Source: Desulforamulus hydrothermalis Lam5 = DSM 18033 (lineage in GTDB: Bacteria; Bacillota; Desulfotomaculia; Desulfotomaculales; Desulfotomaculaceae). From it: a stretch of DNA of 64,000 nt. The translations under genes and the position numbers were made by a program. Location of the stretch: contig NZ_CAOS01000014.1 of assembly GCF_000315365.1 (NCBI RefSeq), forward strand, positions 1-64,000, in the 5' to 3' direction. The stretch's first letter is position 1. Each line of letters opens with the position of its first letter. This document shows positions 3,141-17,250 of the stretch, piece by piece. The notes under the pieces are model-generated. The model did no database searches. It was not told the DNA's origin and saw nothing but the letters and a program-made list of their open reading frames with translations.

Positions 3141-3340
3141 ATAAAATATATTCTTTGTTACAAGGTGCCTTAACCATTGACAGTTGTCCGGTGAAACGGA
3201 TAATTCATGCTACGCTGCTCAGGTTAATCCGGTTGATTAACTTTATGCATGATGCTTGATTTGATCCGGCATTATATTCAAACAGTTGCCGGAAAAAGTT
3301 AAACGAAAATAAAAACCATGTAAAAATTTGTTTTGGTTCG

Positions 3341-3369
3341 TTGACAAATGCACACAGCCTTGCTAGTAT
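3341..3369 (+). promoter_or_regulatory. Sigma-A promoter of the purine regulon
   Basis: A perfect -35 hexamer TTGACA (3341-3346) is separated by exactly 17 bp from TAGTAT (3364-3369, 5 of 6 matches to TATAAT). Transcription would start near 3376, about 12 bp before the guanine aptamer. The permease and purE through purD appear to form one long same-strand unit behind it. Confidence 0.85.
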
Positions 3370-3387
3370 GAGATTGTACAAGTTAAT

Positions 3388-3458
3388 CATTCCGTATATG
3401 CTTGGGAATTGGCTCAAGTGTTTCTACCGGGCAACCGTAAATTGCCTGACTACGGGAG
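3388..3458 (+). ncRNA. Guanine-type purine riboswitch aptamer
   Basis: The fold matches the xpt-class purine aptamer. P1 is TTCCG/CGGGA (3390-3394 with 3453-3457). P2 is CTTGGG/CTCAAG. The J2/3 segment is GTTTCTACC. P3 is GGGCAA/TTGCCT with loop CCGTAAA. J3/1 is GACTA. The specificity base is C3450 (GAC-TA, equivalent to C74 of xpt), which pairs with guanine or hypoxanthine; adenine switches carry U there. Guanine binding to such aptamers normally lowers expression of purine genes. It ends one or two bases before the second aptamer. Confidence 0.9.
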
Positions 3459-3560
3459 GGAAAGTGTACCTAGGGTTCCACAACCCCCAGGGGTGGTTGG
3501 TTTGGTCCGAGCGGTACAGGCGTTTTTGCGCTACACCGATAGGGATAAAAGCCCAGGCGG
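3459..3560 (+). ncRNA. ykkC-family aptamer, probable PRPP riboswitch, in tandem with the guanine aptamer
   Basis: The hallmarks of the ykkC family are present in order: CTAGGGTTCC (3470-3479), TGGTCCGAG (3503-3511), ACACC (3534-3538) and GGGATAAAAGCCCAG (3542-3556). The family splits into guanidine-I, ppGpp, PRPP and nucleoside-diphosphate classes. PRPP is favoured because the RNA sits directly behind a guanine aptamer and ahead of de novo purine genes, a known arrangement that acts as an IMPLY-type logic gate. The 3' conserved strand (GCCCAG, 3551-3556) is also the 5' arm of the terminator. Ligand binding would therefore favour readthrough. The subclass is inferred from context, not read from a diagnostic base. 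Confidence 0.82.
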
Positions 3561-3608
3561 TAGGTTTCACTCTGCTTAGAATGAAACCTATCGTTCTGGG
3601 CTTTTTTG
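3551..3608 (+). terminator. Riboswitch-controlled terminator ahead of the permease and purine operon
   Basis: GCCCAG (3551-3556) pairs with CTGGGC (3596-3601), followed by six T. Inside it, TAGGTTTCA (3561-3569) pairs with TGAAACCTA (3582-3590), giving a long two-part hairpin. The outer 5' strand belongs to the conserved core of the PRPP aptamer, so aptamer and terminator are mutually exclusive. The permease start codon is about 118 bases further on. Confidence 0.88.
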
Positions 3609-3725: not shown

Positions 3726-5099
3726 GTGCTGGAACAGTTTTTCAAACTCAAAGAACACAACACCACTGTGCGGACAGAAATTATTGCCGGTCTGACCACC
3801 TTTATGACCATGGCTTATATTCTGTTCCTCAACCCCAACATCCTGGCCGGCACCGGCATGGACAAGAACGCCGTATTTTTTGCCACAGCTATGGCGGCCG
3901 GTGTGGTAACCATTGCCATGGGTTTGTTTGTTAATTTTCCCATCGCCCTGGCGCCCGGTATGGGCCTTAATGCCTTTTTTGCCGCGGTGGCTGCCCAGCA
4001 TGTGGGTATGCCCTGGCAGGTAGCCCTTGGTGCGGTATTTATTTCCGGTATTATCTTTGTTATTTTAACAGTTACCAAGGTGCGCCAAATTCTGGTTGTG
4101 GCGGTGCCCAATTCCCTCAAACGGGCCATTACGGTGGGTATCGGCTTATTTATCACCATCATTGGCTTAAAATTATCTGAACTTACCGTTGTTAAGGCGG
4201 GCCCGGTAATTCCCCCCACCCTGCAAGCCCTGCAAGACGGCGGGGTAGCAACCCTCAAGTTTTTTGAGTGGAACATCTTCCTGGGTTCCTTTCATAATCC
4301 GGCTACCTTATTAACTCTGATCGGCCTGGCTGTGACATCCGTATTGATGGCCAACCGGGTTAAAGGCTCCTTGCTGATCGGTATCCTGGTTTCCACCCTG
4401 ATTGGCATTCCCCTGGGCGTTACGGTTATCCCGGAAAACTTTAGCCCCTTTGCGCTGCCGGATTTCAGCAACCTTAACGTGGGCAAACTGGATATTATGG
4501 GCGCCCTGCATATGGGTATCTGGACGGTGGTATTCACCTTTACCTTTGTGGAATTGTTTGATACCTTCGGCACCCTGGTGGGCACTGCCGATAAAGCGGG
4601 CCTGCTGGATAAAAACGGCCAGTCGCCCAGAATCGGTCGGGCTATGCTGGTGGATGCCCTGGGGGTTTCCTTCGGTGCGTTGATGGGTACCAGTACGGTG
4701 ACCGCCTATGTAGAAAGTGCCGCCGGCATCGGCGAGGGCGGCCGTACCGGTTTAACGGCTGTTACCACCGGTGTTTTGTTCCTGCTGGCCCTGGCCCTGG
4801 CCCCGCTGGCCGGCTTAATCCCCAGTGCCGCCACCGCGCCTGCCTTGATTATTGTAGGGGTACTGATGGTTTCAGCGGTGCGGGAGATTGATTTCGACGA
4901 CTTTACCGAAGGGTTCCCGGCCTTTATGACCTTTACCTTGATGCCCTTTACTTACAGCATTGCCAACGGCATTGCCGCAGGTATTATTTTCTACACTGCC
5001 CTAAAGGTTCTGTCCGGCCGGGCCAAAGAAGTGCACTGGTTAATGTACATCCTGTTTGTCCTGGTAATCACCCGTTATATTTTCCTGGGTGGGGAATAA
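3726..5099 (+). CDS. pbuG: Purine-base permease, NCS2 family AzgA/PbuG group
   Basis: This is a membrane importer for hypoxanthine/guanine (possibly adenine), feeding salvage. The 457 residues carry the conserved opening TEIIAGLTTFMTMAYI and the LNPNILA segment. They also hold the APGMGLNAFFA loop, a central TVVFTFTFVELFDTFGTLVG and the GTSTVTAYVESAAGI substrate-site motif. There are about a dozen hydrophobic helices. The start is GTG 3726 behind AAGGAGGAAG. It is the first gene after the tandem riboswitch, so uptake and synthesis would be controlled together by guanine and PRPP. The AzgA-type subgroup is clear; the exact base preference is not. Confidence 0.88.
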   Translation: MLEQFFKLKEHNTTVRTEIIAGLTTFMTMAYILFLNPNILAGTGMDKNAVFFATAMAAGVVTIAMGLFVNFPIALAPGMGLNAFFAAVAAQHVGMPWQVALGAVFISGIIFVILTVTKVRQILVVAVPNSLKRAITVGIGLFITIIGLKLSELTVVKAGPVIPPTLQALQDGGVATLKFFEWNIFLGSFHNPATLLTLIGLAVTSVLMANRVKGSLLIGILVSTLIGIPLGVTVIPENFSPFALPDFSNLNVGKLDIMGALHMGIWTVVFTFTFVELFDTFGTLVGTADKAGLLDKNGQSPRIGRAMLVDALGVSFGALMGTSTVTAYVESAAGIGEGGRTGLTAVTTGVLFLLALALAPLAGLIPSAATAPALIIVGVLMVSAVREIDFDDFTEGFPAFMTFTLMPFTYSIANGIAAGIIFYTALKVLSGRAKEVHWLMYILFVLVITRYIFLGGE

Positions 5100-5136: not shown

Positions 5137-5652
5137 ATGTCAGCCCTGGTAGGTATTGTGCTGGGCAGCGATTCCGACCTGCCCTTGATGAAGGATGCCG
5201 TGCAAACCCTGGAGAAGTTCGGTATACCCTACGAGTTGAATATTTCCTCCGCCCACCGGGCCCCGGATAAAACCGCTGCCTACGCTAAATCGGCTGCTTC
5301 CCGGGGGCTGAAGGTTATTATCGCTGCCGCCGGGCTGGCGGCTCACCTGCCGGGGGTGCTGGCAGCCCACACGGTGTTGCCGGTGATCGGGGTGCCGGTT
5401 AAGTCAGGTGCCCTCAACGGGGTGGATGCCCTGTATGCCATCGCCCAGATGCCCCCGGGCGTTCCGGTGGCTTCGGTGGCGGTTAACGGCGCCAAAAATG
5501 CCGCCATCTTGGCAGCCCAGATGATTGCCTTAACGGATGCGTCCCTGCAGCAGCAGCTGTACCGGTTTAAAGAACATTTGGCTGCGGAAGTGGAGGAAAA
5601 GGACGCCAGGCTAAAGGAATTTGGCGTGGACGGATATTTGAACGCTAAATAG
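5137..5652 (+). CDS. purE: 5-(carboxyamino)imidazole ribonucleotide mutase / AIR carboxylase PurE
   Basis: The enzyme forms CAIR in de novo purine synthesis. The 171 residues begin with the GSDSDLPLM phosphate-binding motif (residues ~10-18), then SAHRAPDK (~38-45) and AAAGLAAHLPG (~66-76). The GVPVKSGALNGVDAL and NGAKNAAILAAQ blocks follow. SAHR places it with class I-like enzymes rather than the SAHK class II. A strong AAGGAGG precedes ATG 5137. No purK is next to it or elsewhere in the window, although purEK is the usual Bacillus arrangement. Confidence 0.93.
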   Translation: MSALVGIVLGSDSDLPLMKDAVQTLEKFGIPYELNISSAHRAPDKTAAYAKSAASRGLKVIIAAAGLAAHLPGVLAAHTVLPVIGVPVKSGALNGVDALYAIAQMPPGVPVASVAVNGAKNAAILAAQMIALTDASLQQQLYRFKEHLAAEVEEKDARLKEFGVDGYLNAK

Positions 5653-5683
5653 TGTCAGTTAGGAAACGGAGGCCGCAGAACAG

Positions 5684-6976
5684 ATGATTGAACGCTACAC
5701 TTTACCGGAAATGAAGCATATTTGGTCTGACCAAAACAAGTTTCAAAAGTGGCTGGAGGTGGAGATTGCTGCCTGCGAAGCCATGGCTCAGCTGGGGCAG
5801 ATTCCGGCAGCCGCTCTGGAAAACATTAAACAGCGGGCCGCTTTTACGGTGGAGCGTATATTAGAAATTGAAGAAGTGACCCGCCATGATGTGATTGCCT
5901 TTTTGACCTGCGTAGCTGAAAACGTCGGAGAGGATGCCAAGTATATCCACATGGGCCTGACTTCTTCGGATGTGGTGGATACCGCCCAGTGTGTACGCAT
6001 GAAGGAAGCCGGGGAACTGCTGCTGAAACGCTTGCAGCGGCTGCGCCAGGTACTGCTGGACAGGGCCGGGGAACACCGGCACACCTTGATGATCGGCCGC
6101 ACCCACGGCATCCATGCGGAGCCGATGACCTTCGGCCTTAAAATGCTGCTCTGGGTGGCAGAAACCGAACGCAATATCGAGCGGCTGCAGCAGGCTGTTA
6201 AAACTGTCAGTGTGGGGGCCATCTCAGGGGCGGTGGGCACCTATGCCAATATAGACCCCCGGGTGGAAGCGTACGTATGCCGGAAGCTGGGACTTCAGCC
6301 GGCCAGGGTATCTACCCAGATCATCCAGCGGGACCGTCATGCTGAGTATTTATGCACCCTGGCGGTCATTGCGGCTTCTCTGGACAAGTTTGCCACCGAA
6401 ATCCGCAATTTGCAGCGCACCGATATTTTAGAAGTAGAAGAATACTTTAACCAGGGGCAAAAGGGATCTTCCGCCATGCCCCACAAACGCAACCCCATCA
6501 CGGCGGAAAACGTGTCCGGTTTGTCCCGGGTGGTAAAGGCCAATGCCATGGCTGCCCTGGATAATGTTACCCTCTGGCACGAACGGGATATCTCCCACTC
6601 TTCGGCGGAACGGGTAATCATTCCGGACAGCACCACCGCCCTGGATTTTATGCTGTACAGGTTTACCGGCATTATGGAAAAACTGCTGGTTTACCCGGAA
6701 AACATGAAGCGCAACTTAGAGAAAACCCTGGGCCTGGTATTTTCCCAGCGGGTGCTGCTGGCCCTGGTAGATAAAGGACTGAGCCGGGAAAGGGCCTATG
6801 AACTGGTGCAGCGCAATGCCATGCAGGCCTGGCGCACCGGCACCAAATTTTTGGAGCTTTTGCAGGCGGATGCAGACATTAAGGCCCGTTTAACCGACGC
6901 AGAACTGGCAGGCTTGTTTGATTACGGCTACCACCTGAGGCATATTGACGAAATTTACAAGCGCTTTGGCTTATAA
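5684..6976 (+). CDS. purB: Adenylosuccinate lyase
   Basis: It cleaves SAICAR to AICAR and adenylosuccinate to AMP, releasing fumarate. The 430 residues are the usual length for the Bacillus/Thermotoga-type enzyme. The fumarase/aspartase superfamily signature SSAMPHKRNP lies near residues 262-271, with its serine on the flexible catalytic loop. The active-site GRTHGIHAEP lies near 137-146, and TSSDVVDTA near 88-96. It starts at ATG 5684, 31 bp after purE, behind AACGGAGG. Confidence 0.95.
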   Translation: MIERYTLPEMKHIWSDQNKFQKWLEVEIAACEAMAQLGQIPAAALENIKQRAAFTVERILEIEEVTRHDVIAFLTCVAENVGEDAKYIHMGLTSSDVVDTAQCVRMKEAGELLLKRLQRLRQVLLDRAGEHRHTLMIGRTHGIHAEPMTFGLKMLLWVAETERNIERLQQAVKTVSVGAISGAVGTYANIDPRVEAYVCRKLGLQPARVSTQIIQRDRHAEYLCTLAVIAASLDKFATEIRNLQRTDILEVEEYFNQGQKGSSAMPHKRNPITAENVSGLSRVVKANAMAALDNVTLWHERDISHSSAERVIIPDSTTALDFMLYRFTGIMEKLLVYPENMKRNLEKTLGLVFSQRVLLALVDKGLSRERAYELVQRNAMQAWRTGTKFLELLQADADIKARLTDAELAGLFDYGYHLRHIDEIYKRFGL

Positions 6977-7005
6977 AGATTATTAAATGAAGGGGGAGGG
7001 TTCTT

Positions 7006-7713
7006 ATGCAAAAATTAGCGATGATTTACGAAGGCAAAGCCAAAAAGGTTTACCGTACCGACAACCCTGATTATTACTGGGTGGAGTACAAGGACGACGC
7101 CACTGCCTTTAACGGGCAAAAAAAAGGCACCATTGACAATAAAGGGGTAGTGAACAACAAAGTATCTGCGGTGTTTTTTCAATTGCTGGAAAAAGAAGGC
7201 ATTCCCACTCACTTTGTGGAACTGGTCAGCGACCGTGAAATGATTGTCAAAGCCCTGCAAATTATCAAGGTGGAAGTGGTGGTGCGCAATATCGTGGCGG
7301 GTTCCCTGGCCAAGCGCATCGGTTTGCCCGAAGGTACACTTCTGCCCCGGACGGTGCTGGAATATTATTATAAGGATGATGCACTGGGCGACCCCTTAAT
7401 CAACGCTTCGCACATCGCTGCATTGGAACTGGCCACCCCCGAGCAAATGGCTTATATTAAGGAAACCGCCCTGCGGGTTAACGAGATTATGCGGCAGTAT
7501 TTAGCCCCGGTCAACATTGACCTGATAGATTATAAATTGGAGTTTGGCCTGCACAAGGGCCAGGTGCTGCTGGGCGATGAAATATCGCCGGACACCTGCC
7601 GTTTCTGGGATAAAACCACCGGCGAAAAACTGGATAAAGACCGCTTCCGCCGGGATTTGGGCAACGTGGCCGGAGCTTACCGGGAAGTGCTGAGGAGATT
7701 GACCGGGGAGTAA
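7006..7713 (+). CDS. purC: Phosphoribosylaminoimidazole-succinocarboxamide (SAICAR) synthase
   Basis: It ligates aspartate to CAIR with ATP. At 235 residues it is the compact bacterial form. Visible motifs are YEGKAKKVY near the N-terminus (ATP loop), DDATAFNG, then [16 protein letters not shown], and the C-terminal [14 protein letters not shown], which supplies metal/substrate acidic residues. ATG 7006 is preceded by AAGGGGGAGGG. Confidence 0.95.
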
Positions 7714-7753
7714 ATCACTAAATTCTGAAGGCTATGCAAAGGGAGGGTTTAAC

Positions 7754-8002
7754 GTGTGGCAAGCAAAGATTTACGTAACCCTTAGGAAAAGTGTGTTGGA
7801 TCCGCAGGGCAGCGTGGTGCGCAAGTCCCTGTTTGCTCTGGGCTACCACAACGTGTCCGAAGTGCGCATCGGGCGCTATATGGTGGTTGATTTGGAGGCA
7901 GCCGACCGGGCTGCCGCCGAGAAACAAGTGCGGGACATGTGCGATAAACTGCTGGTGAACCCGGTAATTGAAGATTATACATTTGAACTGGTGGAGGTGT
8001 AA
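7754..8002 (+). CDS. purS: Phosphoribosylformylglycinamidine synthase subunit PurS
   Basis: This 82-residue small subunit bridges PurL and the glutaminase PurQ in the three-part FGAM synthase of Gram-positive bacteria and archaea. It shows the expected KIYVTLRKSVLDPQG start, the GRYMVVDLE strand and the CDKLLVNPVIEDY ending. The start is GTG 7754 behind GGGAGGG. It lies just ahead of purQ, with a 3-bp gap. Confidence 0.93.
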   Translation: MWQAKIYVTLRKSVLDPQGSVVRKSLFALGYHNVSEVRIGRYMVVDLEAADRAAAEKQVRDMCDKLLVNPVIEDYTFELVEV

Positions 8003-8005
8003 AGG

Positions 8006-8707
8006 GTGAAATTTGGAGTGGTGGTTTTCCCCGGCTCCAACTGTGACGCCGATTGCCTGCACGCCATTCAAACCGTAACCGGGCAGCCGGCCGAGTACAT
8101 TTGGCACAAAACGGGCAGTGTGGACGGCTTTGACTGTATTGTGCTGCCCGGGGGATTTTCTTACGGAGATTACTTAAGATGCGGTGCCATAGCCAGGTTT
8201 TCGCCGGTGATGCGGCCAATCGTTGAGTTTGCCCGCCGGGGTGGACTGGTGATAGGCATTTGCAACGGTTTTCAGATTCTTACCGAGGCCGGCCTGCTGC
8301 CCGGCGCTTTGCACCGCAATAAAAATTTACAGTTTCTGTGCCACGATACTTTTCTGCGCCTTGAAAACAATACCACCCCCTTTACTTGCCGGGCAGCCAA
8401 AGGACAGGTTATGAAAATCCCCATTGCCCACGGTGAAGGAAATTACTATGCCGATCAGGAAACCCTCCAACAGTTAGAAGCAAACAATCAAGTAATTTTC
8501 CGCTACTGCAACCCGCAAGGCGAAGTAACCCCGGCTGCCAACCCCAACGGTTCGCTTAACAATATTGCCGGCATTTGCAACCGGCAGGGCAATGTGCTGG
8601 GCATGATGCCTCACCCGGAACGCTGTGCCGAAGCAGTGCTGGGCAATACCGACGGACAACTTATCTTCCAATCACTTCTGGATTTCTGGCAGAGGAGGTG
8701 CGGCTAG
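8006..8707 (+). CDS. purQ: Phosphoribosylformylglycinamidine synthase glutaminase subunit PurQ
   Basis: A class I glutamine amidotransferase that delivers ammonia to PurL. The 233 residues show the [11 protein letters not shown] start, [15 protein letters not shown], the nucleophile cysteine in GICNGFQIL (about residue 88), and the catalytic His-Glu pair in [10 protein letters not shown] near 205. GTG 8006 follows the purS stop by 3 bp, with GGAGG overlapping the end of purS. The stop is adjacent to the purL start. Confidence 0.94.
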
Positions 8708-10933
8708 ATGACTACGGATCCCAGGGTATGGCGTGAGATGGGCCTCACCGACTCAGAATATGAAAAAATCCTGGACATCCTGGGCCGGGAACCTAATTAT
8801 GTAGAGCTGGGCATTTTTGCTGTCATGTGGTCGGAACACTGCAGTTACAAGACATCCCGTCCCGCTTTGAAAACGTTGCCCACCGAAGGACCGGCCATCC
8901 TGCAGGGACCGGGCGAAAATGCCGGTATTGTGGATATCGGCGACGGGCAGGCGGTGGTTTTTAAAATTGAAAGCCACAATCACCCTTCGGCTATCGAGCC
9001 CTACCAGGGTGCTGCCACCGGTGTGGGCGGTATTCTGCGCGATATTTTCACCATGGGAGCCAGACCGGTGGCGGTGCTGGACAGCCTGCGCTTTGGCCGG
9101 TTGGACAACCCCCGGGTGCGCTACCTGTTTGAAGGCGTGGTGGCCGGCATCAGCGGTTATGGCAACTGCATCGGCGTTCCCACAGTGGGCGGCGAAGTTT
9201 ACTTTGAGGACTGCTACAAAGACAACTGTCTGGTTAACGTAATGTGTGTGGGTTTGCTGGACCAGCGCCACATTAAAAAAGGGGTTGCCGCAGGCATCGG
9301 CAACCCGGTGCTGGTGGTGGGCGCCAAAACCGGGCGGGACGGCATCCACGGGGCCACCTTTGCTTCCGAGGAACTGTCTGAGGCGGCGGCCGACAAGCGT
9401 CCGGCCGTTCAGGTGGGCGATCCCTTTATGGAAAAACTTCTTTTGGAGGCCTGTCTGGAGGTTATTAAAACCGGCTATGTGGTGGGCATTCAGGATATGG
9501 GGGCGGCGGGCCTCACCAGTTCTTCCTGCGAGATGGCCAGCCGGGCCGGCACCGGCCTGGAAATGGATCTGGCCCTGGTTCCCCGCCGGGAAGCGGGCAT
9601 GACTCCTTATGAAATCATGCTTTCGGAATCCCAGGAACGGATGCTGCTGGTGGTACAAAAAGGAACGGAAGATAAAGTAAAAGAGATATTTGCCAAGTGG
9701 GATTTGGATGCGGTGGTGGTGGGCCGGGTTACCGGGGACGGCCTGCTGCGGATTAAAGAGGGCCCTCAGGTGGTGGCGGAGATTCCCGCCCGGGCTTTAA
9801 CTGAGCAGGCGCCGGTTTATTACCGCCCCACCCGGGAACCGGCTTACCTGAAGGAAGTGCAGAACTACCCGCTGGACAACCTAAACCTGCCCGCTGATTA
9901 TAACGAGTTGTTGTTGCAATTGCTGGCTTCCCCCAACATTGCCAGCAAGCAGTATGTTTATCAGCAGTACGACTATATGGTGGGCTTAAATACAGTGGTG
10001 CCTCCCGGTGCTGCTGCGGCAGTGCTGCGGGTCAAGGGTACCGACAAAGGAATTGCCATGACCACTGACTGCAACGGGCGCTACTGTTTCCTGGATCCCA
10101 AAACCGGTGCGGCCATTGCGGTGGCTGAGGCTGCCCGCAACCTGGTTTGTGCCGGTGCTAAACCGCTGGCTGTGACCAACTGCTTAAATTTTGGCAACCC
10201 GGAAAAACCGGAAGTTATGTGGACTTTTTGGCAGTGTATCGAAGGTATGGCCGAAGCCTGCCGGGTGCTGGAAACTCCGGTTACCGGCGGCAATGTCAGT
10301 TTTTATAATGAAAGCCAGGGCAGTGCGGTTTATCCCACACCCACCATCGGCATGGTGGGCCTGGTGGAAAACCTGGCGCATGTTTGCACCCAGGGCTTTA
10401 AGCAGGCGGGGGATGCTGTTTTTCTTATTGGCGAGACCCTGCCGGAACTGGGCGGCAGCGAATATTTAAAAGTACATTTTGGTTTAACCAAAGGCAAACC
10501 GCCTGCCCTGGATTTGCATCTGGAGAAAAAGGTGCAGCATTTTGTACTGGCCGAAATCAAGAGCGGGCTGATTAAATCCGCCCACGATTGTGCCGAAGGA
10601 GGACTGGCGGTGGCCCTGGCGGAATGCTGCATAGCCGGCGGACTGGGGGCAGACATTACCATGGTGCGCCGCTTCCGGGGCGATGCCCTGTTATTTGGCG
10701 AAACACAGTCCCGCATTATTATTAGTGTGGATCGGCAGCGCAGCGTTGAACTGGTGAAAAAACTGGTGGCTGCCGGCGTTCCTTACAGCCAGTTGGGTAC
10801 CGTGGGCGGCGAGTCACTGGTGATTAATGTGGTAAATCCCGGCTGCACCGGCTGCGGCGGTACCCTGGTGAACCTGCCGGTGACCCGGCTGGCAGAAACC
10901 TGGCGGGGGGCGATACCTTGTCTAATGAAGTAG
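8708..10933 (+). CDS. purL: Phosphoribosylformylglycinamidine synthase subunit PurL
   Basis: The synthetase subunit converts FGAR, ATP and glutamine-derived ammonia to FGAM. At 741 residues it is the small PurL type that requires PurS and PurQ. It contains [34 protein letters not shown] (phosphate/ATP site), [24 protein letters not shown], and in the second half [12 protein letters not shown] and [16 protein letters not shown]. The start ATG lies directly after purQ. Its last 16 bases overlap the start of purF. Confidence 0.95.
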
Positions 10934-12342
10934 CTAACTTGCTGTTGCCGGATAAACCGGTGGAAGAATGCGGTGTTTTCGGCATCTACGGTGCCGGCCT
11001 GGATGTGGCCAGGCTGACTTATTACGGCCTGCATGCGCTGCAGCACCGGGGCCAGGAAAGCGCCGGCATTGCCGTGGCAGACGGCCGCCAGATACAACTG
11101 CATAAGGGTATGGGACTGGTAACCGAGGTTTTTACCGGGCAGCAGCTGGAACAGTTCTGCGGCCCGGCTGCCATCGGCCATGTGCGCTATTCCACCACCG
11201 GGGCCAGCCAGCCCCTTAATGCCCAGCCCCTGGTATTTCGTTATGCTAAAGGTATGCTGGGTTTAGCCCACAACGGCAATATTACCAACATCACCGAATT
11301 GAGAGCACAGCTGGCTGCCACCGGTTCGGTTTTCCAGTCCTCCACCGACAGTGAAGTGGTGGTAAACCTGATTGCCCGTTATAACGCCAACAGTTTGGAA
11401 GAAGCCTTGATGAAATGTATGATTGATGTAAAAGGGGCTTATTCACTGCTAATACTAACCGAAAATGCCCTCTATGCCGCCCGGGATCCTCACGGTTTCC
11501 GTCCCCTGTGTCTGGGCCGGCTGGGGGATGCCTATGTGGTTGCTTCCGAGTCCTGCGCCCTGACCACGGTGGGCGCCGCCTTCCTGCGGGATATTGAACC
11601 GGGGGAAATTATTCGCATCGACCAGTCGGGCCTGACGGTCACCCGGGGCTTAACAGCCCAACAGCCGGCCCATTGTATTTTTGAATATATTTACTTTGCC
11701 AGGCCTGACAGCACTCTGGACGGCTTTAACGTTAACCTGGTGCGGCGGGAAATGGGGCGGCAGCTGGCCCGGGAATATCCGGTGGCGGCGGATATTGTGA
11801 TTGCGGTACCGGATTCCGGGACGGCGGCAGCCAGGGGTTATGCAGAGGAGTCCGGCATTCCCTTTGAAGAAGGTTTGATGAAAAACCGTTATGTGGGCCG
11901 CACCTTTATTCAGCCCACCCAGGCCATGCGGGAAATAGGCGTTAAGCTCAAATTAAATCCCATCCGGGAAGTGCTGCAGGATAAGCGCGTGGTGATGGTG
12001 GACGATTCTATCGTACGGGGCACTACCAGCCAAAAACTGGTAGCCATGCTGCGGCAGGCGGGGGCCCGGGAGGTACACCTGTGCATCAGCTCGCCGCCGG
12101 TGCGCCGCTCCTGCTATTACGGCATTGATACCTCGGACGAACAAGAGTTGATTGCAGCCAAGTTGCCGCTGGAAGAGATCCGCCGCAACATTGATGCCGA
12201 CGGCCTGCATTACCTTAGTTTAGAGGGCTTGCTGGATATTTTTGCGCCCCGGCAAAATCATTTCTGCACAGCCTGCTTTAACGGTCACTATCCGGTGGAG
12301 GTAGCCAAGCCTAAGGAAAGCGGCAAGTATAGTTTAGAATAA
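10918..12342 (+). CDS. purF: Amidophosphoribosyltransferase (glutamine PRPP amidotransferase)
   Basis: It catalyses the committing step of purine synthesis, PRPP to phosphoribosylamine. The 474 residues begin with a ~17-residue propeptide that is expected to be removed to expose Cys18 (ECGVFGIYG), the N-terminal glutaminase nucleophile. The PRPP-binding loop is [14 protein letters not shown] near residue 360. Cysteines in AHCIFEY, SCYYGID and HFCTACFNG fit the [4Fe-4S] type seen in Bacillus. The start is TTG 10918, inside the end of purL, after a G-rich GGCGGGGGG; no later start keeps Cys18 near the N-terminus. Confidence 0.93.
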
Positions 12343-12354
12343 GGGGGTTTTGTC

Positions 12355-13407
12355 ATGTCCCAGCCTCAATCACAACCCCTTACCTACGCCGGTGCGGGGG
12401 TAGACATCGAGGCCGGCAACCGGGCGGTGCATTTAATGAAACAGGCGGTGCGCAGTACCTTTCGCCCGGAGGTGCTGACAGATATTGGCGGCTTTGGCGG
12501 TTTGTTTGCTTTACCGGCCGGACGCTATCAGGAACCGGTGCTGGTAGCGGGTACTGATGGCGTGGGCACCAAGTTAAAGGTGGCCCAGTTAACGGGTGTT
12601 CACAACACCATCGGCATTGATGCGGTGGCCATGTGTGTTAACGATATTCTGGCCCAGGGAGCAGAACCGTTGTTTTTCCTGGATTATCTGGCGGTGGGCA
12701 AGTTGCTGCCCGAACGGGTGGCTGAGATTGTCAGCGGGGTGGCCGCAGGCTGTCGCCAAGCCGGCTGTGCCTTAATCGGCGGTGAAACCGCCGAGATGCC
12801 GGGCTTTTACAGCGAGGAGGAGTATGACATTGCCGGTTTTGCTGTAGGTGTGGCGGAGCGCAGCCGGATTATCGACGGTCAAACCATTGCAGCGGGCGAC
12901 AGCATCATTGGTTTGGCTTCCTCCGGCCTGCACAGCAACGGTTATTCCCTGGCCCGCCAGGCTCTGCTGGAAGTGGCAGGCTACCGGCCGGACACCTATG
13001 TGCCACAGCTGGGCCGCACAGTGGGTGAAGAACTGCTGACCCCCACCCGCATTTATGTGAAAACTGTTTTGCACCTGCTGAACAAGTTTGCTGTCAAGGG
13101 CCTGGCCCATATCACCGGCGGCGGCTTGACGGAAAACCTGCCCCGCATACTGCCCACGGGGGTAAAGGCGGTATTAAACCGCACAGCCTGGCCGGTACCG
13201 GCGGTGTTCAGCTTGATTCAACAGATTGGACAGGTGGCCGAGCCGGAAATGTTGCGCACCTTTAACATGGGGATCGGCATGGTGCTGGTGGTACCGGCTG
13301 CCGAGGCGCCGGCAGTATTACAGGAACTGCAACGGCTGGGCGAAACAGCTTACCTTATTGGCCGGGCAGCGGCTGGGGAACCGGCAGTGGAGTATGTATA
13401 TGAATAA
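12355..13407 (+). CDS. purM: Phosphoribosylformylglycinamidine cyclo-ligase (AIR synthase)
   Basis: It closes the imidazole ring, FGAM to AIR, with ATP. The 350 residues show [14 protein letters not shown] at the N-terminus, then [42 protein letters not shown] and [13 protein letters not shown], in the family order. ATG 12355 follows purF by 12 bp behind AAGGGGG. Confidence 0.95.
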
Positions 13408-13423
13408 TCTGGAGAGTAAAAAC

Positions 13424-14056
13424 ATGGAAAAACTAAGAGTGGGTGTCCTGGCCTCGGGACGTGGTTCTAACTTACAAGCCATTATCGACGGCTGCCGCCA
13501 AGGCCTGGTGCCGGCCCGGGTGGTGGTGGTGCTGAGCGATAAGGCCGGCGCCTATGCCCTGGACAGGGCGCGAGCCGCAGGCATTCCGGCCTTCCATGTC
13601 AACCCGCAGGATTTTGCCAACAAACACGATTATGAAAGGGAGCTGGTGAAAATACTGCAGTCCTACGGGGTACAACTGGTATGCCTGGCCGGCTACCTGC
13701 GGCTGGTGGGGGAGCCCCTGCTGCAGGCTTTTCCCAACCGGATGATGAACATTCATCCTGCTTTATTGCCTGCTTTTCCGGGCCTGCACGGGCAGCGGGA
13801 TGCTCTGGCCTACGGGGTAAAAATTGCCGGTTGCACGGTTCATTTTGTGGACGAGGGCATTGATACCGGGCCTATTATTTTACAGGCAGCCGTGCCGGTT
13901 TACGACGATGATACCGAGGATACCCTGGCGGCCAGGATTCTCCGGCAAGAACACCGGTTGTATCCCGAGGCGGTTAAGCTGTTTGCCCAGGGACGCTTGC
14001 GGGTGCAGGGGAGAAAAGTATTTATTGATCAGGAGCGTGATCATGTTGAAGATTAA
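13424..14056 (+). CDS. purN: Phosphoribosylglycinamide formyltransferase (GART)
   Basis: It transfers a formyl group from 10-formyl-THF to GAR. The 210 residues begin with [16 protein letters not shown] (phosphate loop). The catalytic Asn-His-Asp set is visible in [16 protein letters not shown] and [17 protein letters not shown] chose ATG 13424, with TGGAGAG about 8 bp upstream, over the in-frame ATG 13400, which overlaps the purM stop and lacks a ribosome binding site. Its last 14 bases overlap purH. Confidence 0.93.
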
Positions 14057-15587
14057 GCGCGCTTTAATCAGTGTATCGGACAAGACCGGTCTGGTGGACT
14101 TTGCCCGGGGGCTGGCTGCCCTGGGAATTGAGCTGGTCTCCACCGGGGGGACGGCGAAAACCCTGCAGGAGGCCGGCTTACCGGTGCTATATGTATCCCA
14201 GGTAACCGGTTTTCCGGAAATCCTGGACGGCCGGGTCAAAACCCTGCATCCCGGGGTGCACGGCGGCATTTTGGCCCAGCGCACCCAGGAACATTTAGAA
14301 CAGTTGAAAGAGCACAAGATTACCCCCATTGACCTGGTGGTGGTCAACCTTTATCCCTTCCGGGAAACCATTGCCAAGCCGGATGTTACCCTGGCGGATG
14401 CCATTGAAAATATAGATATCGGTGGGCCGGCCATGGTACGGGCGGCAGCCAAAAACCATGCCTATGTGGGGATTGTGGTTAATCCCGCCCGTTATGGCCA
14501 GGTGCTGGCGGCTCTGGAGCAAGAGGGTGATCTTTCCCCGACCCTGCGCCTGGATCTGGCCGGCGAGGCCTTTGCCCATACGGCCGCTTATGATACAGCC
14601 ATCGCCAATTACCTGCAGGGCCTGCAGGGCCAGGCGGGTTTCCCGCCGGTGTTCAGCCTGTCGCTGGTAAAATCCCAGGATTTGCGTTACGGCGAGAATC
14701 CCCACCAGCAGGCAGCCTTTTACCGTGACCCGGCCGTAACCGGCCCCTGCATTGCCAATGCGGAACAGCTGCACGGCAAGGAATTGTCCTATAACAACAT
14801 TCTGGATGCCAACAGTGCTTTGGAGTTGGTGCGGGAATTCCCTGAACCCTGTGCGGTGATTATTAAGCACAACAATCCCTGCGGGGCAGCCATAGCAGAA
14901 TCGCTGGCGGCCGCTTACCAAAAAGCGCTGGCAGCCGACCCGGTTTCCGCCTTTGGCGGTATTGTTGCCTGCAACCGGCAGGTGGATGCCGCAACTGCCG
15001 AGCAAATGGCGCAGATTTTCCTGGAAGCGGTGGTGGCGCCTGATTTTACTGACGAAGCATTGGCCCTTTTAAAGCAAAAAGCAAACCTGCGGCTGCTTAA
15101 GACGGGACCGTTAAGCGGGCAAACCACAGATCTGCTGGAAGTAAGAAAGGTTAACGGCGGGCTGCTGGTGCAGCAGGCCGACCGGGCAGCGGCCGCGCCG
15201 GACCGGCTGCAGGTGGCGACTGAACGCCGGCCGGCGGATCATGAAATAAAAGACCTGTTGTTTGCCATGACGGTGGTGAAACATGTCAAGTCTAACGCCA
15301 TCGTACTGGCAAAAGACGGCCGGATTATCGGTGTGGGGGCCGGGCAAATGAACCGGGTGGGCGCAGCCCGCATTGCCCTGGCCCAGGCAGGTTCCCAGGC
15401 TAAAGGTGCTGTGCTGGCCAGTGATGCCTTCTTCCCCTTCCGGGATACGGTGGACGAGGCGGCCAGGGCAGGTATTGCCGCGATCATTCAGCCGGGTGGC
15501 TCCATCCGGGATGATGAGTCTGTGGCGGCCTGCAACCAGCACGGCATAGCCATGGTATTTACCGGTTTGCGGCATTTCAAGCATTAA
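14043..15587 (+). CDS. purH: Bifunctional AICAR formyltransferase / IMP cyclohydrolase
   Basis: It carries out the last two steps to IMP. In 514 residues, the N-terminal cyclohydrolase domain (MGS fold) shows [19 protein letters not shown] and [11 protein letters not shown], with [15 protein letters not shown] near residues 64-78. The formyltransferase domain has [27 protein letters not shown] and [11 protein letters not shown]. The start is ATG 14043 inside the 3' end of purN, behind a GGAGCG. A longer open frame extends upstream but only as out-of-frame purN sequence. Confidence 0.95.
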
Positions 15588-15622
15588 TGTTCAGATAACT
15601 TTCATTGGGTGGAGTGGGATAC

Positions 15623-16888
15623 ATGAAAATACTGGTGGTTGGCAGCGGCGGACGGGAACATGCTCTGGTTTGGAAATTGCGGCAAAGCCCCCGGGTGAAG
15701 GAAATTTTTTGCGCACCGGGCAATGCCGGCATGGCAAACCTGGCTGTGTGTGTAAACATTGCCGCGGCAGACATAAACGGCCTGCTGGACTTTGCCAAAC
15801 AAGAACAAATTGACTTGACGGTGGTGGGGCCGGAAATACCCCTGACCAACGGTATCGTAGATTTATTTGAAAAAGAAGGCTTAAAAATATTCGGTCCCTC
15901 CCGGGCGGCCGCCGAAATTGAAGGGAGCAAGGCCATGGCCAAGGATTTAATGGCCAAGTATCATATCCCCACCGCCCGTTACGCTACTTTTGACAATGCG
16001 GCGGAGGCCCGGGCCTATGTGCAAAAATACGGGGCGCCCTGCGTTATTAAAGCCGACGGGCTGGCCGCGGGCAAGGGTGTTATCGTGGCGGAGGACCTGG
16101 AAACAGCGCTGGCGGCAGTGGATATGATCATGGCCGAGCGGGCTTTCGGGCGAGCCGGTGATAAGGTGGTTATTGAGGAATATTTACAGGGTGAAGAGGT
16201 CAGCGTACTGGCCTTTGTGGACGGTGAAACGGTTGTGCCCATGGTGGCGGCCCAGGATCACAAACGGGCGGGCGACCAGGATACCGGTCCCAATACCGGC
16301 GGTATGGGAGCATATGCCCCGGCGCCGGTATATACGCCGGAACTGGCGGATAAAGTGTTAAAGGATATACTTTATCCCACCGTACGGGCTATGGCCGCCG
16401 AGGGCAGGCATTACCGGGGGGTTTTGTATGCCGGCCTGATGGTAACCCCGGAGGGGCCGAAGGTGTTGGAATTCAATGCCCGGTTTGGCGACCCCGAAAC
16501 CCAGCCGGTGCTGGCTTTACTGAAAACAGACCTGGTGGATATTATTGAAGCCGTATTGGAAGGACGCCTGGCCCGGCAGCCCATTGTCTGGCAAGAGGGA
16601 GCGGCCGTTTGTGTGGTGATGGCCGCCGGCGGCTATCCCGGCAAATACGAAACCGGCCAGGCGATCAAAGGCCTGGAGCGGGTGCCGGACGGTGTACAAG
16701 TATTCCATGCCGGCACCGCCCGGCGGGACGGTAAAATTGTTACCAACGGCGGCCGGGTGCTGGGGGTAACCGCCCTGGGGCGGGATATCCCGGAGGCCAT
16801 CCGCCGGGCTTACCAGGGCGTAGCGGCCATTGAATTTGCCGGCGCCCATTACCGTACGGATATCGGGCAAAAGGCAGTTAACAGGTAA
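15623..16888 (+). CDS. purD: Phosphoribosylamine-glycine ligase (GAR synthetase)
   Basis: This ATP-grasp enzyme joins phosphoribosylamine and glycine. The 421 residues begin MKILVVGSGGREHALVWKL. They contain VVGPEIPLTNGIVD, the ATP-grasp loops VIKADGLAAGKGVIVA and GPNTGGMGAYAPAP, and the metal-binding EFNARFGDPETQ. ATG 15623 has GGTGGAG 9 bp upstream; the TTG at 15605 is less likely. It is the last purine gene, and repeat copy A begins 50 bp beyond. Confidence 0.95.
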   Translation: MKILVVGSGGREHALVWKLRQSPRVKEIFCAPGNAGMANLAVCVNIAAADINGLLDFAKQEQIDLTVVGPEIPLTNGIVDLFEKEGLKIFGPSRAAAEIEGSKAMAKDLMAKYHIPTARYATFDNAAEARAYVQKYGAPCVIKADGLAAGKGVIVAEDLETALAAVDMIMAERAFGRAGDKVVIEEYLQGEEVSVLAFVDGETVVPMVAAQDHKRAGDQDTGPNTGGMGAYAPAPVYTPELADKVLKDILYPTVRAMAAEGRHYRGVLYAGLMVTPEGPKVLEFNARFGDPETQPVLALLKTDLVDIIEAVLEGRLARQPIVWQEGAAVCVVMAAGGYPGKYETGQAIKGLERVPDGVQVFHAGTARRDGKIVTNGGRVLGVTALGRDIPEAIRRAYQGVAAIEFAGAHYRTDIGQKAVNR

Positions 16889-16956: not shown

Positions 16957-17222
16957 GCGACCTTTAGACAAAGGTTGCAAAACAAAGTGAGGTGGTTTTA
17001 TGATCCCCTGTCGGCGACTTGTCGAAGCACCGGTAACAGCACTTGATGAGCGAAAGGAGCCATTGGGGTGGCGCCCACAGGACGTGGGCGCCAGCCGAAC
17101 CGGGCCAGGATGGCCCGTTTGAGGCGACCCCAATGGCGACCGGAGCGAATCATAGTGCTGTCGGTGCGTAGACCGGAGCCAAAGGGGATCATAAACCACC
17201 GATAATGTTTGGCAACACTCTG
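16957..17222 (+). repeat. Terminator-associated palindromic element, copy A (long form)
   Basis: A 266-bp element lies between exact 18-bp direct repeats. The outer core stem is GGTGGTTTTATGATCCCC (16991-17008) with GGGGATCATAAACCACC (17184-17200). Inside, ACCG..ACAGCACT (17029-17043) pairs with AGTGCTGTCGGT (17154-17165) and CCATTGGGGT (17060-17069) with ACCCCAATGG (17127-17136). Two closed hairpins are TGGCGCCCAC/GTGGGCGCCA (loop AGGAC, 17069-17093) and CGGGCC/GGCCCG (loop AGGAT, 17101-17117). The 3' tip GGCAACACTCTG resembles the CGACACTCTG tip of the other copies. No protein is encoded. It fills most of the gap between purD and yerC. Confidence 0.85.
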
Positions 17223-17250
17223 AGAGGGCATGAAGCCCTCTCTTTTTCTT
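17223..17250 (+). terminator. Intrinsic terminator at the right side of element A (second hairpin copy)
   Basis: The GAGGGC-ATGAA-GCCCTC hairpin at 17223-17240 is followed by TCTTTTTCTTTC. It is the best candidate for the 3' end of the purine transcript, 335 bp after the purD stop. It is also the right-hand target duplication of element A. Confidence 0.75.

Follow-up and report, generated by a model that had tools for sequence, protein, structure and literature searches.

A predicted guanine–PRPP tandem riboswitch with a covarying shared strand ahead of a purine permease and pur operon in Desulforamulus hydrothermalis

The window analysed here, a stretch of 64 000 nt from Desulforamulus hydrothermalis Lam5 (contig NZ_CAOS01000014.1, positions 1 to 64 000), contains a purine operon whose promoter, leader elements, genes and final hairpin are all on the + strand. 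The first gene (3726–5099, GTG start) encodes an NCS2-type purine permease, which matches PF00860 with 140.5 bits and is a relative of the AZG adenine/guanine permeases of solved structure. It is followed by purE, purB, purC, purS, purQ, purL, purF, purM, purN, purH and purD (5137–16888), each assigned by an NCBIfam equivalog over its curated cut-off. All of the operon genes are on one strand and are separated by about 40 nt or less, or overlap. The original prediction had placed a permease plus eleven purine genes here, exactly as found; its suggestion that the unit is unusually large carries little weight, as relatives from the same order have the same permease–pur arrangement under the same tandem. 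A terminator-like hairpin (17222–17242) is the probable end of the operon. Between purD and this hairpin lies a TwoAYGGAY RNA (17020–17174; RF01731, 60.4 bits), which precedes a trpR-like gene and his genes.

A candidate promoter with ten of 12 matches (TTGACA at 3341–3346, a 17 nt spacer and TAGTAT at 3364–3369, with TG upstream of TAGTAT) would start the transcript at about position 3376. The promoter of the second tandem in the same genome is identical (TTGACA-17-TAGTAT). Further upstream in the window, at 3177–3204, there is another strong promoter-like site (TTGACA-16-GATAAT, 11/12). In the leader, which runs from the promoter at 3341–3369 to the permease at 3726, a purine aptamer is followed directly by an aptamer of the ykkC fold. 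Positions 3376–3610 fold 5.2 standard deviations better than dinucleotide-shuffled sequences (z = −5.2), and none of 200 shuffles was equally good. The P1 stems of the two aptamers are 7 nt apart (3457 to 3465); the description of the second aptamer as following ‘within two bases’ was loose. P0 of the ykkC-fold aptamer reaches back into P1 of the purine aptamer.

The first aptamer (3390–3457) matches RF00167 with 78.6 bits (E = 2.3 × 10⁻¹², cut-off 37; Rfam envelope 3372–3472), and its P1 is formed by 3390–3396 with 3451–3457. The specificity position of purine aptamers is C in those for guanine and U in those for adenine. Here it is C3450, the base after GA in GACUACG, as had been predicted, and we infer from it that this aptamer is of the guanine type. 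The aptamer core and the C at the specificity position are those of a singlet guanine riboswitch (RF00167). The guanine aptamer in the window differs in that it lacks a terminator of its own and that its P1 is in competition with P0 of the aptamer that follows.

The second aptamer (3460–3568) has its P1 at 3465–3470 with 3513–3518 and conserved GAAAG and AGGUUUC flanks. RF00442 matches 3459–3561 with 60.0 bits (E = 2.5 × 10⁻¹⁰), confirming the ykkC-class aptamer that was expected after the guanine aptamer. The model represents the guanidine subtype, which explains why this score falls just short of the 63-bit cut-off; related tandems exceed it. Automatic annotation would therefore miss this aptamer or label it guanidine-I.

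The ligand of the second aptamer was assigned using the residue numbering of the PRPP riboswitch, which was transferred via the contact residues and construct primers of the crystal-structure paper (Knappenberger 2018, PMC6031431). This gives the equivalences A5-G6 = A3463-G3464, G48-C49 = G3511-C3512, C75 = C3534, G96 = G3556 and A103-G104-G105 = A3562-G3563-G3564. The window carries the PRPP signature (ykkC subtype 2b): a pyrimidine at position 49 (C3512), G96 (G3556), C75 (C3534) and GAAAG/AGGUUUC flanks that form P0. The guanidine-I class shares the ykkC fold (RF00442) and has an A at the equivalent of PRPP C49 and no P0; the pyrimidine found here excludes this subtype, as judged from the aligned residues. 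The ppGpp class (subtype 2a), which also has the ykkC fold, lacks G96, and G3556 argues against it. PRPP is thus the predicted ligand of the second aptamer, as originally proposed.

One feature of the pocket departs from this pattern. There is no purine at position 101, which is deleted in the lineage of the window. In members of the family of the window (f1) and in most of those from family f7, position 101 is lost and the 5′ strand of P3 is longer by one base. The two changes always occur together (25 of 25; alignment A1 columns 213 and 232, window 3538–3541 and 3560–3561), and two members of a related family have neither. In the crystal structure position 101 contacts the α-phosphate, and single residues are known to shift the specificity of ykkC RNAs (PMC6031431), so that the linked swap could mean that the pocket has changed in this lineage and binds another ykkC-family ligand, ppGpp or a new nucleotide. 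We consider this very unlikely: G96 and C75 are retained (G96 being absent from the ppGpp class), PMC6031431 rates the conservation of position 101 as weak (>75% purine), and the gene contexts are purine synthesis, import and salvage, as for PRPP.

The leader contains a single terminator, an intrinsic hairpin at 3547–3605 (−36.6 kcal/mol) that is followed by TTTTTT (U tract 3602–3607). The 3′ strand of the PRPP aptamer doubles as its 5′ arm, in agreement with the prediction made for the last conserved strand of that aptamer. P0 consists of GAAA (3460–3463) paired with UUUC (3565–3568) and, beyond a G–A mismatch, of 3455–3458 paired with 3570–3573. The 5′ side of P0, GGAG-G-GAAA (3455–3463), is also the 3′ side of guanine P1 up to position 3457; the two pairings overlap and therefore 3455–3457 are common to both helices. 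The 3′ side of P0, UUUC-A-CUCU (3565–3573), starts within the 5′ arm of the terminator, with UUUCA belonging to both. Guanine P1, PRPP P0 and the terminator thus share strands in series.

Given this arrangement, we are confident that the leader is a guanine–PRPP tandem riboswitch which acts on one terminator through a chain of helices, each excluding the next. Guanine would stabilize P1, which would take up the 5′ strand of P0 and weaken the PRPP aptamer, leaving the 3′ strand of the latter free for the terminator (OFF). PRPP would stabilize P0 and P3, keeping the 3′ strand from the terminator and opening guanine P1, such that transcription would continue despite guanine (ON). Purine uptake and de novo synthesis would be expected to shut down only when high guanine coincides with low PRPP. 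The direction of switching and the IMPLY truth table are carried over by analogy from experiments on this class, in which guanine turned expression off, PRPP turned it on and PRPP overrode guanine; the IMPLY output was demonstrated for Bacillus megaterium only (Sherlock 2018, PMC5912903). Judged by free energy alone, the terminator is the strongly favoured fold, and the default ON state would consequently have to be kinetic.

Two further pairings were considered for the 5′ end of the leader and dropped. The minimum-energy fold has a long pairing between the 5′ end of the transcript and the P2 arm of the PRPP aptamer, which was rejected as it has many G–U pairs and, on inspection by eye, is not kept in the second tandem or in genome G004. 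A 5′ GUAC that could lengthen guanine P1 so that it covers the GUAC strand of PRPP P1 is missing in the second copy.

Sherlock 2018 (PMC5912903) left the structural interplay of the two aptamers open, Knappenberger 2018 (PMC6031431) proposed the exclusion of P0 and guanine P1 from one predicted structure, and according to a 2022 review (PMC9481103) the structural change behind the logic of the tandem was still not established. We used covariation across relatives to examine the shared strand. Tandems were gathered from named genome contigs and from searches at the genus, order and phylum levels, giving 73 parsed sequences, of which 60 were distinct; a class-level search merely repeated the result of the order-level search. 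A pattern scan of the contigs was not strict enough, and many of the 119 matches it gave are due to chance; the analysis kept only those that contain both aptamer cores. Two tandems from genome G002 were set aside, L129 because it lacks most of the guanine aptamer and L138 because one base is missing; these defects are likely to be assembly errors, the genome being 72% complete with frameshifted downstream genes. At L129 and L180 (G002:C18), the guanine aptamer ahead of the PRPP aptamer retains P1 and no longer has P2 and P3, which may be an error of this kind.

The duplex energy of each strand with its own partner was compared with that obtained after swapping partners between the 60 tandems, which contain 23 kinds of shared strand. 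P0 gave −7.4 kcal/mol with its own partners versus −5.8 kcal/mol with swapped partners, and guanine P1 gave −7.5 versus −5.6 kcal/mol; for neither helix did any of 20 000 permutations do as well. With one representative per lineage (n = 19), 30 of 50 000 permutations matched the result for P0 and 22 of 50 000 that for P1, and the outer part of P0, taken alone, was matched by five of 50 000. These permutation tests reduce the effect of common ancestry and do not fully remove it. In a MAFFT alignment of 28 rows (A1), column 77, which corresponds to window position 3457, shows five pair types with its guanine P1 partner (UA, UG, AU, CG and GU) and five with its P0 partner (AU, GU, UA, GC and UG). 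The P0 covariation score in A1 was 0.233, a value reached by none of 500 shuffles and well above those of slid partners (≤0.114). The clearest individual cases are Desulforadius, in which CGUG finds a CACG partner on both sides, and L207 and L208, in which an A–U pair is replaced by G–C inside the P0 core. The mean energies of P0 and P1 differ by 0.4 kcal/mol; they are nearly equal, which fits the expectation for competing helices.

The shared strand thus covaries with both of its partners, supporting from comparative data the exclusion of P0 and P1 proposed by Knappenberger 2018. What had been proposed from one example now has sequence evidence from about 60 relatives that two sensors compete for one RNA strand, and with covariation over about 19 lineages the exclusion is directly testable with compensatory mutants at 3455–3458.

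This result also bears on two other ways in which the leader might work. Each aptamer has a complete conserved core, and the two might work independently of one another, in which case the logic would be NOT-guanine AND PRPP in place of IMPLY. This is highly improbable in view of the single terminator, the 7 nt between the P1 stems and the covariation of the shared strand with both partners; the review PMC9481103 also attributes the IMPLY output to the use of one shared platform. Alternatively, the aptamers might exclude one another only sterically, a clash that was among the possibilities given by Sherlock 2018 (PMC5912903), with the shared-strand pairing incidental to the conservation of P0. 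We think this unlikely, because covariation is also seen for the outer part of P0, which extends into guanine P1, when it is taken alone. Competition between P0 and guanine P1 for the shared strand remains our preferred reading.

The leader is a member of the known guanine–PRPP tandem class (Sherlock 2018), in keeping with the original prediction, and not a new kind of element: a guanine aptamer stands directly 5′ of a PRPP aptamer at a distance of 7 nt, with one terminator and purine genes downstream. The B. megaterium codA tandem (PMC5912903) has the same aptamer order, a spacing of 5–7 nt from one P1 stem to the other, a single terminator that overlaps the PRPP aptamer, and purine genes. 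The window differs from it in that a permease and a complete pur operon follow, and in the lineage-specific one-base swap between P3 and position 101. The PRPP aptamer of Thermoanaerobacter mathranii, which is part of a tandem (PMC6031431; PDB entry 6CK5), shares the GAAAG/AGGUUUC flanks forming P0, G96, C75, pyrimidine 49 and the proposed P0/P1 exclusion, and differs from the window in possessing position 101.

Tandems of this type occur once to three times per genome in the genus (twice in the genome of the window) and are of three kinds. Kind A, ahead of the permease and pur genes, is found in all nine genomes, with one copy damaged. Kind B, ahead of a BMP-type nucleoside transporter, is found in six genomes; in the genome of the window the transporter is followed by permeases and xpt. 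Kind C, found in three genomes (L179, L188 and L193), precedes an adenine deaminase and then the molybdenum subunit of xanthine dehydrogenase, a gene context from which the gate would be predicted to control purine interconversion as well. The genus appears to reuse one RNA gate for purine synthesis, import and interconversion. The text of Sherlock 2018 (PMC5912903) makes no mention of permease, xpt or adenine deaminase.

The tandem class was described from Firmicutes (PMC5912903). In Ktedonobacterales (Chloroflexota), tandems L006, L060, L071 and L085 precede NCS2 or cytosine/purine permeases and a deaminase; at three Ktedonobacterales loci, which carry permease or deaminase genes, the ykkC core is preceded by a full guanine aptamer. 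Two divergent ykkC-like RNAs of 35–45 bits, L143 and L146 (G007:C1:1715933-1716038 and G001:C33:106583-106685; CCUAUUGG...AAAAGGCCCGAGGGGGAAGG), have neither the guanidine nor the PRPP signature.

The second tandem in the genome of the window, L219:190-900 (G000:C1:125189-125899), belongs to the BMP/ABC nucleoside transporter–xpt operon. Between its terminator and the transporter lies a cold-shock gene (csp) of 65 amino acids on the opposite strand. The same gene is present at all six B loci of the genus (L219 and its relatives L177, L182, L185, L187 and L192); four B loci of a related family have no intervening cold-shock gene. From this layout, read-through from the tandem would produce an RNA antisense to csp, comparable to what is described for noncontiguous operons and for antisense RNAs under riboswitch control in Listeria and Clostridium (PMC7154746). 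That the tandem is the controller of a small purine regulon at up to three loci, with a read-through RNA at the import locus that is antisense to csp, is a tentative suggestion which we hold to be possible and on balance doubtful; were it correct, the guanine/PRPP gate would also set the level of the cold-shock protein, in the opposite sense. In several B loci the switch hairpin adjoins the csp stop codon, and the hairpin could act as a terminator for both directions.
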